Origin: Eudoraea sp.
GTDB taxonomy: Bacteria; Bacteroidota; Bacteroidia; Flavobacteriales; Flavobacteriaceae
Assembly: GCA_013041785.1 (NCBI GenBank)
Contig: JABDRK010000107.1
Coordinates: 1-16,526 of the forward strand
DNA length: 16,526 nucleotides
Direction of reading: 5' to 3'
Shown piece after piece: positions 2,617-8,400 of the stretch. Under the pieces are notes generated by a model, which did no database searches, was not told the origin of the DNA, and was given only the letters and a program-made list of their open reading frames with translations. Numbering within the stretch: position 1 is the stretch's first letter; each line of letters opens with the position of its first letter. The position numbers were made by a program, and so were the translations under genes.

Positions 2617-3231
2617 TTACTCCTGCTTTTCCCGGTTCAATTTCGCCGCGATTTCTTTGTCGCCCAAAGCGTTTCTCTCCTGTAATTCTTCAAAGATGCG
2701 GGCATGGTCGTTTTCCCTTCCCTGAGACAATTTATAAGCAGCCTGAATTTGGTCTACAGTAATTTGGAAGCCCACTACACCTTTTACCTGCCGGAGCGTT
2801 TTCGGGGATAGCTTATCCAGTGAAATGGGATGTTTTGAGCCTTTCTCGTACTTATCCACCAGCCGGTGCAGGGAGGCCATTACTTCTTCTTCGGTTAATA
2901 TGCGGAGCTTACCATATACATGTACTGCAATATAGTTCCATGTGGGCACTTCCTCTTCCTGATACCAGGAGGAAGAGATATAGGCATGTGGCCCGTTAAA
3001 GATGGCCAAAACAGTTTCATTTTCATCAAAATGCCGCCATTGTGGATTGGCTTTGGCAATATGGCCTGTAAGTACCTGCTTTCCGGAAGCATCTGTTTCC
3101 AGTTCCAGCGGGAGATGGGTAGCCCAGGGTTTGCCTGCTACCTGGCTGACCAGGACAGCAAAGGCATTGCTCCTGAGAAACTCAGCAACTTCCTCAAGGT
3201 CCTCGTTCCGATAGTGTAAAGGGATATACAT
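2617..3231 (-). CDS. PaiB-like FMN-binding negative transcriptional regulator
   Basis: Protein of 204 residues, the usual length for the PaiB / FMN_bind_2 family, a split-barrel flavin-binding fold. Typical features are the N-terminal MYIPLHYR, then SNAFAVLVSQVAGKPWATHLPLELE, then WRHFDENETVLAIFNGPHAYISSSWY and VPTWNYIAVHVYGKLRIL, and a C-terminal KGVVGFQITVDQIQAAYKLSQ segment. In Bacillus subtilis PaiB is described as a repressor of sporulation and degradative enzymes, but many homologues act alone and their role is unclear; no helix-turn-helix is visible here. It is convergent with the LytTR regulator and divergent from the second kinase locus. The ATG start gives the standard N-terminus. 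A weak -7-like TATCTTTA lies close upstream but without a good -33 partner. Confidence 0.88.
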   Translation of the reverse strand: MYIPLHYRNEDLEEVAEFLRSNAFAVLVSQVAGKPWATHLPLELETDASGKQVLTGHIAKANPQWRHFDENETVLAIFNGPHAYISSSWYQEEEVPTWNYIAVHVYGKLRILTEEEVMASLHRLVDKYEKGSKHPISLDKLSPKTLRQVKGVVGFQITVDQIQAAYKLSQGRENDHARIFEELQERNALGDKEIAAKLNREKQE

Positions 3232-3298
3232 GCTGCGGGTAAAGATAACTAAAATAGGAGCTAACGGCTTAGCGGGAGGGCGACAAGACAGTGATTCT

Positions 3299-3332
3299 AC
3301 AATTCAGGAACTGTAAATGACAGTTGGGTATC
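3299..3332 (+). promoter_or_regulatory. Putative LytTR operator A (two direct repeats, 21-bp pitch)
   Basis: Two similar half-sites, ACAATTCAGGAAC starting at 3299 and ACAGTTGGGTATC starting at 3320, are exactly 21 bp apart. ACAGTT is close to the core of known LytTR sites such as those of AgrA and VirR, which are 9-bp direct repeats separated by about 12 bp. The same arrangement recurs at 4928-4961. The site ends just upstream of a -33-like element, the usual place for an activator. Binding by the regulator at 6376-7131 is inferred. Confidence 0.6.
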
Positions 3333-3338
3333 ACTTAT

Positions 3339-3369
3339 TATGAATAGGGTTGGCAGACATCTAAATTTG
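3339..3369 (+). promoter_or_regulatory. Putative Bacteroidota-type promoter of the kinase locus
   Basis: TAAATTTG at 3362-3369 matches the Bacteroidota -7 consensus TAnnTTTG exactly. TATG at 3339-3342, 19 bp upstream, matches three of four bases of the -33 TTTG element. It lies 10 bp after the 3' end of the second operator half-site core. Transcription would start near 3375, giving a leader of about 190 nt before the kinase ATG. Confidence 0.55.
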
Positions 3370-3384
3370 CTTAAAAATTAAGTT

Positions 3385-3459
3385 ATGGCTCTTGTGATTA
3401 TATTAAGCGTAATGTGCTACAGCTATATTTCCTGGTTAATTAAGCAAGTGCTGGGGTGA
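3385..3459 (+). CDS. Possible 24-residue membrane peptide in the kinase leader
   Basis: A short frame opening with ATG at 3385, 15 bases after the predicted -7 element, encodes 24 residues. It begins MALVIILSVMCYSYISW and ends in LIKQVLG, which is one hydrophobic helix with a lone Lys near the end. The sequence before the ATG (TTAAAAATTAAGTT) closely resembles that before the first 2TM gene at 5021 (TTAAAAATTAAATC), which favours real translation. It could be a regulatory leader peptide, a small membrane partner of the kinase, or a chance ORF. No family is recognised. The stop at 3457-3459 is 109 bp before the kinase start. Confidence 0.35.
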   Translation: MALVIILSVMCYSYISWLIKQVLG

Positions 3460-3496
3460 GAGCTGGGGCATCACCCAAAGTTTTTACTAATTTTAA

Positions 3497-3526
3497 ATCC
3501 GGAGGCTTATGGCCGAAAAGCCGGAT
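3497..3526 (+). other. Possible hairpin in the kinase mRNA leader
   Basis: ATCCGG (3497-3502) can pair with CCGGAT (3521-3526), and CTT (3506-3508) with AAG (3518-3520), leaving an AGG bulge and an eight-base loop. A GGAGG run lies in the left arm, three bases before an ATG that opens a 9-codon frame (3509-3538). No U-run follows, so this is not a typical terminator. A role in translation control of the kinase is conjecture. Confidence 0.3.
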
Positions 3527-3568
3527 CGCGGTTTGTGAAGGAGTAGGAGTAGCCAAATAGATAAAGGC

Positions 3569-4906
3569 ATGTATAGAAAAATTATTAGAATACTGTTGGT
3601 CGGATTCCTGGTGGGCTTTGTACTGTCCTTTATTTTCATTGGGATACAGGTGCTGGCCGGCAGTCAGGACTTAGCCAATATCAAGGAAATACTCGAGGAT
3701 GTAGGCAGTTATATGCTGTATTCCATCGTGCTCACTTTTATCAATGTGAGCTGGTTTGATTATTTGAACAAGAAGGTAACATGGAAAAAATACAGCAGGT
3801 ACCGATTGCTTATTGGTGCACTGGGGGGTATTGTGTTCACCATGATTGGAATATTCTTTATCCGGGTATTTTTAGAGATTTACATCAGGGAGGAAACCTG
3901 GGCAGAATTCATAGCGGGGGAACGGTTGGTTTCTTACTACATCGCCCTGCTTATTACCCTTGTGGCCACTTTATTTTTTCATGCCTTGTATTTCTACAAA
4001 GCCTGGCAGGATAAACGGGTAAAGGAACAGAAAATCATTGCAGGATCCGCTTCTGCGAGGTTTGATGCGTTAAAAAATCAGTTAGATCCGCATTTTTTAT
4101 TCAACAGTCTTAATGTACTGACCAGCCTGATCGAGGAAGACCCGGACCAGGCCCAGCGGTTTACGACCTCCCTCTCCAAGGTGTATCGCTATGTCCTGGA
4201 GCAAAAGAACAAAGACCTGGTTACGGTAGACGAAGAACTTCAGTTTGCCCGCACCTACGTCCGACTCTTGAAGATGCGCTTTGAGGACAGCATAGTTTTT
4301 GAGATCCCTGAACATGCGTCGAATCCGGAGGCCAGGATAGTACCGCTCTCCCTGCAACTGCTGCTGGAAAATGCAGTAAAACACAATGTTGTTACCGCTA
4401 GCAAACCTCTGAGAATAAGGGTGTATGAGGAGAACGAGAATCTGGTAATCAGTAATAACCTGCAGGAAAAACAGGTGGTAAAGAGAAGTAGTGGAGTTGG
4501 CCTGCGCAATATCCAGCAGCGTTATCAGATATTGACAGACCGGGAGGTTGAGGTTTTGAAAAACACAGGTACATTTCAGGTAAAAATACCCATGCTTACC
4601 CGTCAGAAATCCGTGGCTTTGTCCCAGAAGGCATACATTGAAGATAAACGCTACCAGAAGGCCAAGGAACGTGTGGAGGCCATTAAGGGCTTTTACGGGA
4701 ACCTCGTTGCCTATTGCCTGGTTATTCCCGCCCTGGGAATCCTGAATTATGTAACCACAGGATGGCCCTGGGTGCTCTTCCCGGCAGTAGGCTGGGGATT
4801 TGGTGTAGTGGTACACGGCATGGAAGCTTTTGGTTACAATCCGCTCTGGGGCAAGCGCTGGGAGGAGAAGAAGTTAAATGAACTGATGCAGCGTGACGAT
4901 TTTTAA
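3569..4906 (+). CDS. LytS-type sensor histidine kinase with C-terminal 2TM domain
   Basis: Membrane kinase of 445 residues. The N-terminal part has four predicted membrane helices (about 6-30, 47-63, 79-104, 120-146) with little outside the membrane, so it may sense the envelope itself. A short coiled linker leads to the His_kinase domain, with the H box LKNQLDPHFLFNSLN (His175). The ATPase N-box is QLLLENAVKHN (about 263-273), with GVGLRNIQQRY at 309-319. After the catalytic core, where most family members stop, residues about 358-445 form a complete 2TM domain. It begins KAKERVEAIKGFYGNL, contains two hydrophobic segments and VVVHGMEAFGY, and ends KRWEEKKLNELM. The same domain occurs alone in the next four genes, so the kinase probably assembles with them through it. 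The cognate regulator is most likely 6376-7131. Confidence 0.9.
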   Translation: MYRKIIRILLVGFLVGFVLSFIFIGIQVLAGSQDLANIKEILEDVGSYMLYSIVLTFINVSWFDYLNKKVTWKKYSRYRLLIGALGGIVFTMIGIFFIRVFLEIYIREETWAEFIAGERLVSYYIALLITLVATLFFHALYFYKAWQDKRVKEQKIIAGSASARFDALKNQLDPHFLFNSLNVLTSLIEEDPDQAQRFTTSLSKVYRYVLEQKNKDLVTVDEELQFARTYVRLLKMRFEDSIVFEIPEHASNPEARIVPLSLQLLLENAVKHNVVTASKPLRIRVYEENENLVISNNLQEKQVVKRSSGVGLRNIQQRYQILTDREVEVLKNTGTFQVKIPMLTRQKSVALSQKAYIEDKRYQKAKERVEAIKGFYGNLVAYCLVIPALGILNYVTTGWPWVLFPAVGWGFGVVVHGMEAFGYNPLWGKRWEEKKLNELMQRDDF

Positions 4907-4927
4907 ACCAGACCTCATGGGCATACG

Positions 4928-4961
4928 ACAATTCGGTAAGGGAAAATGACAATTCGGCAAG
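4928..4961 (+). promoter_or_regulatory. Putative LytTR operator B (two direct repeats, 21-bp pitch)
   Basis: ACAATTCGGTAAG (4928-4940) and ACAATTCGGCAAG (4949-4961) differ at one base and start exactly 21 bp apart. The pitch equals that of the pair at 3299/3320 and fits two LytTR domains bound to one DNA face two turns apart. The site lies in the 114-bp gap between the kinase and the first 2TM gene and should raise or retune expression of the downstream set independently of the kinase. Confidence 0.65.
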
Positions 4962-4967
4962 TAAGAT

Positions 4968-4998
4968 TTAGATAAGGCCCCATCATTTTGGAGATTTG
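4968..4998 (+). promoter_or_regulatory. Putative promoter of the 2TM gene set
   Basis: GAGATTTG (4991-4998) matches TAnnTTTG except at its first base, with TTAG (4968-4971) as a three-of-four -33 match 19 bp upstream. Both elements stand at exactly the same distance from the second operator half-site as in the kinase promoter (19 and 42 bases from its first base). A competing -7 match, TCATTTTG at 4983-4990, lacks a good -33 partner. The leader would be only about 15-20 nt. Confidence 0.5.
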
Positions 4999-5020
4999 AT
5001 CTGTAATTAAAAATTAAATC

Positions 5021-5302
5021 ATGGAAAAAATCAATAAAGCAGACAAATACCTCCGGGCTAAAAAGAAGGTGGAGGAGATCAGAGGATTTTATGGCAACCT
5101 GACGGCATACCTTATTGTAATCCCAGTGCTCGCCTGGTTCAACTACAGGACTACAGATTTTCCCTGGGTCATTTTTCCCGCAGTAGGCTGGGGACTTGGC
5201 GTGATCCTGAACGGATTATGCGCCTTTGGGTACAGCCCCATATTAGGGAAGAATTGGGAAGAGCGAAAAATCAAGGAATATATGTCGGATAACCAATTTT
5301 AA
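5021..5302 (+). CDS. 2TM domain protein 1 (closest to the kinase tail)
   Basis: Small membrane protein of 93 residues made of essentially one 2TM domain. It has an N-terminal basic amphipathic helix (YLRAKKKVEEIRGFYGNL), two hydrophobic helices with a short TTDFPW turn, and a C-terminal NWEERKIKEYM helix. It is very similar to the C-terminal domain of the preceding kinase: both share TT..PWV.FPAVGWG, then GV, then AFGY. A His present in the second helix of all the other units is Asn here (VILNGL). It is the first gene after operator B. The biochemical function of 2TM proteins is not established; interaction with the kinase tail is inferred from the shared domain. Confidence 0.88.
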   Translation: MEKINKADKYLRAKKKVEEIRGFYGNLTAYLIVIPVLAWFNYRTTDFPWVIFPAVGWGLGVILNGLCAFGYSPILGKNWEERKIKEYMSDNQF

Positions 5303-5334
5303 CAGTAAAAAACATAACCATTAACATTAGCATC

Positions 5335-5640
5335 ATGGAAGACTTTAGCAAAGAAAACAAATACATACGCGCCAAGGAGCGGGTAGAAGAACTAAAAAAG
5401 TTCTATGGCAACCTTACCTCATATGTAATTGTAATTAGCGGCCTGGCCGTCCTGAATTACTGGATAGACGGCTGGAGGTATATGTGGTTCTTATGGGCAG
5501 CATTTGGATGGGGAATCGGACTATTTTTCCACGCCATACGTACCTTCAACCTCAATCCGTTCTTCGGTAAGGACTGGGAGGAAAGAAAGATCAAAGAATA
5601 TATGAAAGAAGACGATGACATTACCCGACGTTGGGAATAG
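5335..5640 (+). CDS. 2TM domain protein 2
   Basis: Protein of 101 residues, again a single 2TM domain. It begins with KYIRAKERVEELKKFYGNL. The first helix is around residues 28-44, the turn is WIDGWRYMW, and the second helix carries the conserved His (GLFFHAIRTFNL). The tail is KDWEERKIKEYMKEDDD, ending in RRWE. It starts 32 bp after the previous gene with no terminator between them, so it is probably in the same transcript. It is clearly homologous to its neighbours but more divergent from the kinase tail than protein 1. No enzymatic motif is seen. Confidence 0.87.
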   Translation: MEDFSKENKYIRAKERVEELKKFYGNLTSYVIVISGLAVLNYWIDGWRYMWFLWAAFGWGIGLFFHAIRTFNLNPFFGKDWEERKIKEYMKEDDDITRRWE

Positions 5641-5649
5641 CACAGGAAT

Positions 5650-5979
5650 ATGAAAAGCATACAGGATAACAAGGAGGAGGAAAAACTGATTCGCGCTAAA
5701 AAAAGGGTGGAGGAGATCAAAGGATTTTATATTCACCTGACTATTTACCTCATAATCAACACATTTATAATAATCAACCTGGGCCTTCAGAATTTTGGGA
5801 ATGACAACGAATTCTGGTCCTTTCCTACCTTTATGACCCCATTATTCTGGGGAATAGGATTAGCCTTCCACGGTATCAATACCTTTAAGAAGAATTCAGT
5901 ATTCACTAAAAAATGGGAGGAAAGAATGATTCAGAAGTATATCGAAAAAGACAAACAGGAAGCGGAGAAATATAAATAA
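5650..5979 (+). CDS. 2TM domain protein 3
   Basis: Protein of 109 residues with the same plan: the basic helix KLIRAKKRVEEIKGFYIHL, a first hydrophobic helix, a longer polar loop (NFGNDNEFWSF), a second helix with the conserved His (GLAFHGINTFKK), and KKWEERMIQKYIEKDKQEA at the end. It starts nine bases after the previous stop and abuts the next gene with no gap, so translation is probably coupled. The loop is enlarged relative to proteins 1 and 2. Partner and function are unknown; membership in the kinase-linked 2TM set is inferred from position and sequence. Confidence 0.87.
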   Translation: MKSIQDNKEEEKLIRAKKRVEEIKGFYIHLTIYLIINTFIIINLGLQNFGNDNEFWSFPTFMTPLFWGIGLAFHGINTFKKNSVFTKKWEERMIQKYIEKDKQEAEKYK

Positions 5980-6309
5980 ATGGAAACGAATCAAGCGTAT
6001 AAAGACAAATTGGAAAAAGCCAAAAAAAGGGTTAAGGCCATAAAAGGTTTTTTCAGCCATGTACAGATCTTTCTGATCGTGTCCATAATTCTGGCCGTAC
6101 TCTATGTACTGCAGGTAGAACCTATAATCCGGATACGCGAAGCGGTAAATGAAGAAGTAATGTCCTGGATAAACCTGAATATTTGGATAAACCTGGGTAT
6201 CTGGGCCCTGATTATCGTGATTCACGGACTGGTTGTCTTCAAATTCAGATTATCCTTTTTAAAAGACTGGGAGGAACGACAAATACAAAAGTACATGAAC
6301 GAAGAATAG
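5980..6309 (+). CDS. 2TM domain protein 4 (most divergent)
   Basis: Protein of 109 residues whose ATG directly follows the TAA of the previous gene. The N-terminal KAKKRVKAIKGFFSHV and C-terminal KDWEERQIQKYMNEE are clear family marks, and the second helix keeps the His (IVIHGLVVFKF). The loop between the helices is the longest of the set and includes a charged stretch (IRIREAVNEEVM) and WINLNIWINLG. The glycine- and proline-rich FPAVGWG segment of the kinase tail and protein 1 is lost. The stop is 66 bp before the response regulator, with a short repeated motif in between. Confidence 0.85.
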   Translation: METNQAYKDKLEKAKKRVKAIKGFFSHVQIFLIVSIILAVLYVLQVEPIIRIREAVNEEVMSWINLNIWINLGIWALIIVIHGLVVFKFRLSFLKDWEERQIQKYMNEE

Positions 6310-6340
6310 GGGATACCCCTGTATATTCGTTGGGATACCC
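6310..6340 (+). repeat. Two GGGATACCC repeats upstream of the response regulator
   Basis: GGGATACCC occurs at 6310-6318 and again at 6332-6340, a pitch of 22 bp, within the 66-bp gap before the regulator gene. The first copy is flanked to give GGGG-ATA-CCCC, but the three-base loop makes only a small hairpin. The motif differs from the ACAATT repeats. It could be an operator, an mRNA processing or attenuation signal, or chance. Confidence 0.4.
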
Positions 6341-6375
6341 TAATTTTAAACCGGAAAGTAAAAGCCGATCATTCC

Positions 6376-7131
6376 ATGCAAGTTATAATTATAGAGGATG
6401 AGAAACCTGCCGCAAGACGCCTCGCGCGCCTGCTATCCGAATTGGGTATTGAAGTATCCACCCTTTTGCATTCTGTTGAAGAATCTATAGCCTGGTTCCA
6501 GAATCATAAACACCCTGACCTTATTTTCCTTGATATTCAACTCTCAGACGGACTTTCATTTGAGATCTTTGATGCCGTTCAGGTGAATAGCGCTATCATT
6601 TTTACCACCGCCTATGATGAATATGCACTGCAAGCTTTTAAGTTGAACAGCATCGATTACCTGCTTAAGCCGATAGACGACGAGGAACTGGCTGTAGCCA
6701 TGAAGCAATATCAAAATCTCAACAATCAGGATAAAACCATCAACCTGGATTTTGAAGACATCAAAAAATTGTTGACCAATCCCCTGGAGCGTGATTACAA
6801 AAAACGCTTCACTGCCAAGGTAGGGCAGCATATCAAAATCATAAACGCAGAAGACATTGAATGTTTCTACAGTGAGAACAAAGGAACCTATGCTGCAACC
6901 CAGGACGGACGAAATTATTTATTGGATACTACCCTGGAACAATTGGAGGAGGAGCTGGCACCTGAAAACTTCTTCCGGGTGAGTAGAAAATTCTACGTCA
7001 ATATCCGGCACATTCAAGACATCGTAGCCTATACAAATTCCCGCCTGAAAGTGAAGTTAAATCGCTTTAACGAGCAGGAAATCATCGTTAGCAGGGAACG
7101 GGTACGGGATTTCAAGTTATGGTTAGAGTAA
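6376..7131 (+). CDS. LytTR-family response regulator of the 2TM kinase locus
   Basis: Transcription factor of 251 residues. The receiver domain shows Glu7/Asp8, phosphoacceptor Asp53 in LIFLDIQL, Thr77/Thr78 in IIFTTAYDEYALQAF, and Lys98 in DYLLKPID. These last two are the classic signatures of regulators paired with LytS-type kinases. After a linker with a helical DFEDIKKLL segment, the LytTR domain (about 145-251) includes DIECFYSENKGTYAAT and FFRVSRKFYVNIRHI, followed by VSRERVRDFKLWL. It lies at the end of the kinase/2TM cluster, so it probably receives phosphate from the kinase at 3569-4906 and binds the paired repeats at 3299-3332 and 4928-4961. Unusually, four small membrane genes separate kinase and regulator. 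Confidence 0.93.
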   Translation: MQVIIIEDEKPAARRLARLLSELGIEVSTLLHSVEESIAWFQNHKHPDLIFLDIQLSDGLSFEIFDAVQVNSAIIFTTAYDEYALQAFKLNSIDYLLKPIDDEELAVAMKQYQNLNNQDKTINLDFEDIKKLLTNPLERDYKKRFTAKVGQHIKIINAEDIECFYSENKGTYAATQDGRNYLLDTTLEQLEEELAPENFFRVSRKFYVNIRHIQDIVAYTNSRLKVKLNRFNEQEIIVSRERVRDFKLWLE

Positions 7132-7206
7132 ATTAACTTATTATTCTGATATAAAATATATTAACCCCTCCCATAGATTTTTCTTATACTACGTTTTTTA
7201 CAGAAA

Positions 7207-8400
7207 TTAAGGGGTATTTTCAACCCGATTGTCATCAAAAGCAGACGGCAGTAGTTTTGGAATCAGTTTGATAAATATAGGCAATAAAACGGCTCCTCCC
7301 GGGAGCATAAATATGGCCAGGGAAGGGATACTTTTAAAGATATCGATTAGCTGGTTTTGCACCTTTTTCTTCTCTTCAGGAGTAAGGTCTTTTACCGTGG
7401 ATTTGGAAAGCAGGGAGACCAATTCTTTGCTGTCTGTAAGTTCTTTTTGTAGTCTTTTGCTGTTCCGCAAGATGAGTTTATTTACCACTTTAGACATGCT
7501 GTCGTAGAACTGAATCGCCAGGTTATTGGATTTTAAAAATGAAATAATGGGAGCATTTTTTTCAAAAAAGTAAGTGACTTCTTCCAGGCTTCTGGAGATT
7601 TGTTTGCGTTCAAAACCAAGGTCATTTCCTATCCCGAATATGAATTCCGATTCGTGCAGTTCCAATACCTTGTCTTCCCAAACTGTGATACAGGCCACAT
7701 CCAAAAAATAGCGATTTTCCCATTTGCTGGCATATTTGGCCAATTTTTCCCGGTACCTGCCGTCAAATTTCTCCTTATTACTGTCAATAAATGTCAGGGA
7801 GGATTCAAAAAGCTGTGCCAGCCGGTCGTCTTTTTTGTTGCGTTCCTTGGAACTGAGTGCATGGAAGATCAGGTTAATTACGATATGCTCCAGGTTTTTT
7901 GCATGTTTCCTGATCTTTTCCCTCCCGTTAAGGTATTCCTTATAGGTAAGTACATCAATAAAGAGCAGGGAATTGGTGATAACACTGTTAAACGTCTTGG
8001 AGATCAAATTATCTTCCAGGTATACCCGGGAATCCATAAGTTTTTCCAGTTGGGAGGTAGTTTTCCTGCCTGTGAACAGTTTATTCAGGAATGACATGCT
8101 AAAAATCCCCAGCTCGGTATAAAATTGGAAAATGCTGTTAAGGAAGCTTTTATAGTCGGTTTGCCCGGTTTCGCTTTTAAAAGTGAAGTACAGGGAAGTG
8201 ATGAGGTTTATCTTCGCCTTTTCATCTTCGGAAAGGGGATGGGCCGACTCTATAAAACGGGGGACCTTCACATTGAGGCCATAGACAAACCCGGTCTTCT
8301 TCATTCCTCCGTATAAATCACGAAAGTCCTTATAGTTATCGAGATGATTTTTTACCTCGTGTCCAAACTTTACAATCCATCCAGATGCCGATGGGTTCAT
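7207..8400 (-). CDS. LETM1-related protein
   Basis: Protein of 397 residues, mostly charged alpha-helix with no signal peptide. Near the C-terminus (about 338-388) is a segment strongly like the LETM1 family: LTPEEKKKVQNQLIDIFKSI, then AIFMLPGGAVLLPIFIKLIP, then KLLPSAF. In mitochondrial LETM1, a K+/Ca2+-H+ exchange factor, the matching stretch is the membrane helix and following LLP..F motif. Related proteins in Flavobacteriia have been linked to biofilm formation by annotation, but no mechanism is clear. The single hydrophobic stretch suggests peripheral or single-span membrane attachment. It is convergent with the LytTR regulator (75-bp AT-rich gap, no clear hairpin). A weak promoter candidate lies upstream at about 8453-8486. 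Confidence 0.75.
   Translation of the reverse strand: MNPSASGWIVKFGHEVKNHLDNYKDFRDLYGGMKKTGFVYGLNVKVPRFIESAHPLSEDEKAKINLITSLYFTFKSETGQTDYKSFLNSIFQFYTELGIFSMSFLNKLFTGRKTTSQLEKLMDSRVYLEDNLISKTFNSVITNSLLFIDVLTYKEYLNGREKIRKHAKNLEHIVINLIFHALSSKERNKKDDRLAQLFESSLTFIDSNKEKFDGRYREKLAKYASKWENRYFLDVACITVWEDKVLELHESEFIFGIGNDLGFERKQISRSLEEVTYFFEKNAPIISFLKSNNLAIQFYDSMSKVVNKLILRNSKRLQKELTDSKELVSLLSKSTVKDLTPEEKKKVQNQLIDIFKSIPSLAIFMLPGGAVLLPIFIKLIPKLLPSAFDDNRVENTP

Follow-up and report, generated by a model that had tools for sequence, protein, structure and literature searches.

The window analysed here is a 16,526-nucleotide stretch of the genome of an Eudoraea sp. (contig JABDRK010000107.1), and the features of the kinase locus described below lie on its forward strand. 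Pfam searches identified a sensor histidine kinase (PF06580) carrying a 2TM domain (PF13239) at its C terminus (3569-4906), four genes for 2TM-domain proteins (5021-5302, 5335-5640, 5650-5979 and 5980-6309) and a REC-LytTR response regulator at 6376-7131, which is presumed to bind both operators discussed here. The locus thus encodes the PF06580 kinase and REC-LytTR regulator that characterize a LytS/LytTR-type two-component system, and the regulator gene also lies 3' of the kinase in those relatives whose fetched stretch reaches that far. Judged by the kinase, Lentiprolixibacter aurantiacus (Flavobacteriaceae) is the nearest of the named relatives, with 81% identity in the kinase and 92% in the regulator. 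A second two-component pair is encoded upstream at 13-2596, consisting of a TPR/HisKA_2 kinase and another REC-LytTR regulator (1862-2596).

Two direct-repeat operators, located by reading the sequence and scored with a half-site profile, flank the kinase gene. The kinase-promoter operator (3299-3328) consists of the half-sites ACAATTCAG (3299-3307) and, 12 bp past the first, ACAGTTGGG (3320-3328), with a pair profile score of 26.6; the 2TM-promoter operator (4928-4957) consists of two copies of ACAATTCGG (4928-4936 and 4949-4957; pair profile score 27.5). Both have a 21-bp pitch and the same layout, namely 9 bp, 12 bp and 9 bp for the operator, 10 bp, a 4-bp -33-like element, 19 bp and an 8-bp -7 element, so that each operator ends 33 bp before its -7-like element. 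The -33-like elements are TATG (3339-3342) and TTAG (4968-4971), and the -7 elements are TAAATTTG (3362-3369) for the kinase promoter and GAGATTTG (4991-4998) for the 2TM promoter. The first-pass annotation had already given the four half-site starts and the common pitch, and had put the -33-like and -7-like elements 19 and 42 bases, respectively, after the second half-site. Counted from the first base of that half-site, these distances hold, and the sequence agreed with the annotation to the base. When the two 91-bp promoter regions are aligned, 49 of the 91 columns agree, so a local duplication is possible, and the likeness could in principle reflect chance or a promoter duplicated around the kinase without regulatory meaning. 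Across loci, however, the half-sites and the -7 element stay fixed while the spacers vary, and the same pair precedes unrelated genes elsewhere; chance is also contradicted by the conservation and control counts given below, and we regard this explanation as extremely improbable.

The operator is rare in the genome from which the window comes (2.37 Mb, 87.85% complete). A search for ACARTTSRG-N10-14-ACARTTSRG returned three matches, comprising both operators and one pitch-23 match inside a transporter-like reading frame, and the reversed control returned none. Allowing two mismatches gave 31 matches versus 18 in the control, and further targets in this genome can therefore not be claimed. We also compared the regions upstream of related kinase genes (81 distinct ones of 85, with three duplicates and one too short region dropped, and L001-L004 and L089 excluded beforehand). 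On the coding strand, ACANTT pairs at pitch 21 with at least nine of the ten core letters were found in 26 of the 81 regions, where shuffling gave a mean of 2.5; perfect pairs were found in 11, compared with a mean of 0.05 after shuffling. The largest other counts at pitches 12-39 were 8, on the forward strand at pitch 13, and 7, on the reverse strand at pitch 21. An 18-position half-site profile divided the regions into two groups, 30 of the 81 scoring at least 18 and the other 51 at most 8.5. Many of the site-less upstream regions read like coding sequence, and when whole loci were scanned, the site turned up at a greater distance upstream in those named loci that were of sufficient length.

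Conservation was followed in 55 named relatives (L034-L088) and the window, searching 1300 bp upstream and 300 bp downstream of the kinase. The profile had been trained on a 400-bp window, beyond which at least 32 of the upstream sites lie, and no site from the gap between the kinase and the 2TM genes was used in training. A profile site occurred upstream of the kinase in all 55 testable loci (L080 was too short) and in 47 of 54 kinase-2TM gaps (L038 and L085 were too short), being absent from the gap in L065, L069, L079, L080, L081, L082 and L086; neither region contained a reverse-strand site in any named locus or in the window. These conserved sites are not independent events, as several of the named loci are closely related to one another. 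The remaining 544,590 control bases contained 12 forward and 5 reverse matches, and some of the 12 forward ones are probably further real sites. On a larger scale, the strict operator pattern was found in 30 of the 60 genomes in the relatives set, which contains the window's own, with one match to the reversed pattern, and the operator combined with the -7 element in 76 of 395 genomes of the order, with none for the reversed control. These 76 genomes belong to the window's own family (66), family f5 (9) and family f3 (1), and to no other family. The half-sites, the pitch and the distance to the -7 element are thus kept in the Flavobacteriaceae, strict matches are rare elsewhere in the genomes, and sites recur upstream of both the kinase and the 2TM genes in relatives. 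These results, with the own-genome control, the pitch-21 enrichment and the reversed controls, bear out the earlier judgement that the arrangement was unlikely by chance.

Two loci carry more elaborate arrays. L083 has three successive operators 3' of the kinase, at 28, 453 and 876 bp past the kinase end (about 425 bp apart), which may provide one promoter per 2TM gene. L077 has three half-sites at an even 21-bp pitch, forming two overlapping operators 203 and 182 bp before the kinase, an arrangement reminiscent of three-repeat LytTR operators.

The core promoter was brought out by aligning the sites on their half-sites alone, whereupon the -7 element emerged at a fixed offset. Among the 56 sites upstream of the operon, its A is present in 56 and the following T, T, T and G in 54, 55, 54 and 47; among the 47 gap sites, A is present in 46 and T, T, T and G in 47, 47, 46 and 44. 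The -33-like element begins with T in 54 of the 56 operon sites, and relatives are T-rich at the same offset in the 2TM promoter. The operator-linked -7 element matches the Flavobacterium -7 element TANNTTTG, in which the first T is nearly invariant across 241 probable promoters (PMC6847099). A generic scan for E. coli-type promoters gave 14 matches versus 9.8 expected and was set aside. Structured RNA in the kinase leader was likewise rejected (z 0.75; 151 of 200 shuffles fold as well), and a search of 3200-7400 for Rfam families returned no match. A 24-aa hydrophobic short reading frame (3385-3459) begins 15 bp past the kinase-promoter -7 element, and several other loci have short frames near the same place, often hydrophobic; their sequences differ, and a conserved small leader peptide was discarded as a candidate. 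The short frame of L020 resembles, by eye, both ends of the protein gene that precedes the kinase in relatives, and the leader frames may therefore be relics.

ComE is an autoregulated LytTR-type response regulator that has a kinase partner of its own and targets competence genes, whereas the genes considered here are 2TM, DUF2141 and DUF2807 genes with a Bacteroidota-type promoter. The ComE box of Streptococcus pneumoniae and S. mitis reads aCAnTTcaG-12-aCAgTTgaG and resembles the present operators in half-site letters, 9-bp half-site length and 12-bp spacer; the listed ComE boxes examined mostly lie 31-32 bp from the -10 element, whereas the window operators lie 33 bp from the -7 element (PMC6001120). 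The SP1717 ComE box (ACAATTCAG-12-ACAGTTGAG, 31 bp to -10) differs from the kinase operator in only one of 18 letters (PMC6001120). LytTR operators are defined as 9-bp direct repeats spaced 10-13 bp apart (PMC11347149, PMC6193735). Both window sites are 9-12-9, all 103 conserved sites keep a fixed place just upstream of the core promoter, and a LytTR regulator is encoded alongside (6376-7131), G008 being the exception among genomes. LRS promoters share the 9-bp repeats, a mostly 12-bp spacer, a strong bias to 10 bp upstream of -35, positive feedback and membrane proteins encoded with the regulator, but an LRS pairs a LytTR regulator with a membrane inhibitor and is set apart from two-component systems (PMC6193735). 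The regulator here has a PF00072 domain and a kinase neighbour; the locus is consequently not an LRS, and its promoter may, by analogy, work like an LRS promoter. AgrA of Staphylococcus aureus also binds as a dimer to two direct repeats upstream of the two promoters of one locus, and differs in genes, signal, core promoter and recognition segment (FFRCHNS versus FFRVSRKF here; PMC4227749). The first-pass assignment to the LytTR type agrees with these published operators, which have the same layout and nearly the same letters (PMC6001120, PMC6193735). The operator is of a known kind, and the likeness to ComE boxes and LRS promoters points to a mechanism of a known kind as well; for the operator or its regulon, our search of the mainly open literature on 2TM, LytTR, DUF2807 and DUF2141 in Bacteroidetes and Flavobacteria found no earlier account.

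The sign of regulation calls for separate consideration, since LytTR sites alone do not give it and the LytTR protein CoxC is a repressor (PMC11347149). The regulator at 6376-7131 could accordingly bind these operators for repression or negative feedback. The CoxC operator, however, overlaps the -35 box, whereas the operators here end 10 bp upstream of the -33-like element, as in activated LRS promoters (PMC6193735). Among the 103 kinase-locus sites, 99 have C or G as the first base of the -7 element, compared with 33 of 98 matches to NA[ACT][ACT]TTTG in other upstream regions of the named loci, and such a base, where present, fits a weak promoter needing an activator. The kinase promoter of the window is one of three sites with the consensus T at this position, and many distant operator and -7 matches also have T (for example in G417, G182 and G265). 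The C or G is therefore a clade trait with exceptions, and the idea of a weakened -7 element as the mark of the whole regulon is ruled out. Weighing the operator position and the base preference in the kinase loci, we consider repression quite unlikely, and activation is the sign adopted below.

Which regulator reads the operators was approached through co-occurrence in the 60 genomes, with a cut-off of E <=1e-90 that was chosen once the hits were seen to fall on either side of an interval from 1.3e-91 to 4.0e-68. By this cut-off, 30 of the 60 genomes have a close copy of the 6376-7131 regulator, and 9 more have one at E 1e-30 or better. The strict operator pattern matched in 25 of the 30 genomes with the regulator versus 5 of the 30 without it (Fisher 3.6e-7, a value that ignores relatedness), and in the other five regulator genomes (G013, G023, G027, G033 and G036) the profile places sites close to the kinase or to a DUF gene. 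The five genomes with a strict match and no close regulator are G008, G009, G038, G044 and G045. G038 has a regulator at E 4e-68, the matches in G009 look repetitive, and the composite operator and -7 pattern no longer finds those of G044 and G045. G008 is a real exception, with a full operator and -7 element at a DUF2807 promoter (site L138, G008:C8:10561-17561) and a best regulator of only E 1.9e-28.

The nearby LytTR regulator at 1862-2596, whose partner is the TPR/HisKA_2 kinase, could also bind the operators, in which case the kinase-2TM operon would be its target. It adjoins the locus, its segment FVRVHRSF fits the canonical recognition motif FhRhHRS, and a copy with >50% identity is present in the fetched stretch of 18 of the 55 named relatives; the operator of G008, lacking a close copy of the 6376-7131 regulator, is in line with another reader. 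The recognition segment of the 6376-7131 orthologues is FFRVSRKF or near it (62 examined, five without a motif match), which departs from the canonical motif. When solved structures were searched with the DNA-binding part, a single weak hit to a response regulator was obtained (3d6w, E 0.0059), the other hits being unrelated proteins. On the other hand, the operators are also found in named relatives with no close 1862-2596 copy in the fetched stretch, L034 carries such a copy and the profile finds no third site in its fetched 13.7 kb, and the motif tracks the 6376-7131 regulator across the 60 genomes. We therefore consider it improbable that this or another LytTR regulator is the reader. Positive autoregulation by the 6376-7131 regulator, as predicted by the first-pass annotation, is the best-supported reading, because this regulator is the syntenic neighbour, its presence tracks the motif with exceptions, and the 2TM promoter reads towards its gene. 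Sequence comparison lends good support both to the proposed autoregulation and to the identity of the regulator.

The operator also occurs upstream of genes outside the kinase locus, a point absent from the first-pass annotation. Among 24 fetched operator stretches, four were kinase loci; among the remaining 20, DUF2141 or DUF2807 genes recur downstream of the site. Single cases were found before a beta-lactamase-fold protein and a DUF2306-like protein (under the Pfam cut-off), and TonB-receptor-like genes follow the operator in L126 (a kinase locus) and L135. Among the matches listed, a site lies within 400 bp upstream of 16 of 30 DUF2807 (Toastrack) homologues, with none on the reverse strand, and of 16 of 29 DUF2141 homologues, with two on the reverse strand (a 30th DUF2141 homologue had no upstream sequence and was left out); no site was found in this interval for the other 14 DUF2807 and 13 DUF2141 homologues among those matches. 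Five of the 16 DUF2141 genes with a site (L224, L227, L228, L236 and L239) adjoin a kinase gene of the same kind, and their site is thus the kinase operon's own. No operator lies upstream of the DUF2807 homologue in the window's own genome (30% identity), and the contig with the DUF2141 homologue contains no sequence upstream of that gene, so the wider regulon is known from relatives only. Toastrack-domain proteins include DUF2807 (PMC11237479), and a Toastrack-domain target or partner of the PSP/Lia-like kind is accordingly found in relatives and not in the window's own genome. PSP/Lia-like loci likewise tie LytTR regulation to Toastrack-domain proteins, through operon neighbourhood in Firmicutes, whereas here the DUF2807 genes lie elsewhere in the genome under a common operator (PMC11237479). 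In G038, from another family, an operon of DUF2141, DUF2306-like, kinase and LytTR genes has two operators, and its kinase has no 2TM domain, suggesting that the pairing of operator and regulator may predate the 2TM fusion.

Several operator stretches show further arrangements. L126 and L135 each have two operators about 2.3 kb apart, of which the first precedes the TonB-receptor-like gene and the second a gene encoding about 205 aa; in L126 this latter gene leads on to the kinase. Paired operator and -7 matches about 2.3-2.5 kb apart are seen in many genomes of the order. At site 1001 of L139, a high-scoring operator has no gene start near it and the next gene, PorV, lies 1350 bp on, and in L122 an AraC-type gene starts 588 bp after the operator.

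The operator pair is real and conserved and its regulon is well defined in relatives, as seen from the sites, their conservation, the fixed promoter spacing, the target genes and the co-occurrence with the regulator. Based on sequence evidence, we consider it very likely that the kinase and the REC-LytTR regulator form a two-component system for which both repeats are activator operators, and which switches on its own operon together with a small envelope regulon. Through its membrane and 2TM portions, the membrane kinase (3569-4906) probably monitors the condition of the cell envelope, and it would phosphorylate the 6376-7131 regulator. Two LytTR domains would then bind the two half-sites, two helical turns apart, and could recruit RNA polymerase at the adjacent Bacteroidota-type -33/-7 promoter. 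One operator would drive the kinase, and the other the four 2TM genes and, by read-through, the regulator; such read-through would close a positive feedback loop. The same operator before DUF2141 and DUF2807/Toastrack genes in relatives is what suggests a small envelope regulon, in which a single regulator probably activates, besides its own operon, several functionally uncharacterized genes of the cell envelope.

A role in envelope stress is our guess from the targets (Toastrack per PMC11237479). We tentatively propose, as a possibility that we hold somewhat short of even, that this is an undescribed envelope-stress system of the Flavobacteriaceae and some neighbouring families, in which 2TM kinase/LytTR pairs read the inner membrane and ComE-box-like operators induce 2TM, DUF2141 and DUF2807/Toastrack proteins; the 2TM proteins may compete with the 2TM domain of the kinase and thereby tune it. 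If true, the system would be a Bacteroidota counterpart of Lia/VraSR-type responses. The letters and pitch of a LytTR operator are nearly alike in Bacteroidota and streptococci despite a quite different core promoter, and for three poorly understood protein families (2TM, DUF2141 and DUF2807) across a large bacterial family the finding supplies an operator, a regulator and a set of targets that can be tested.
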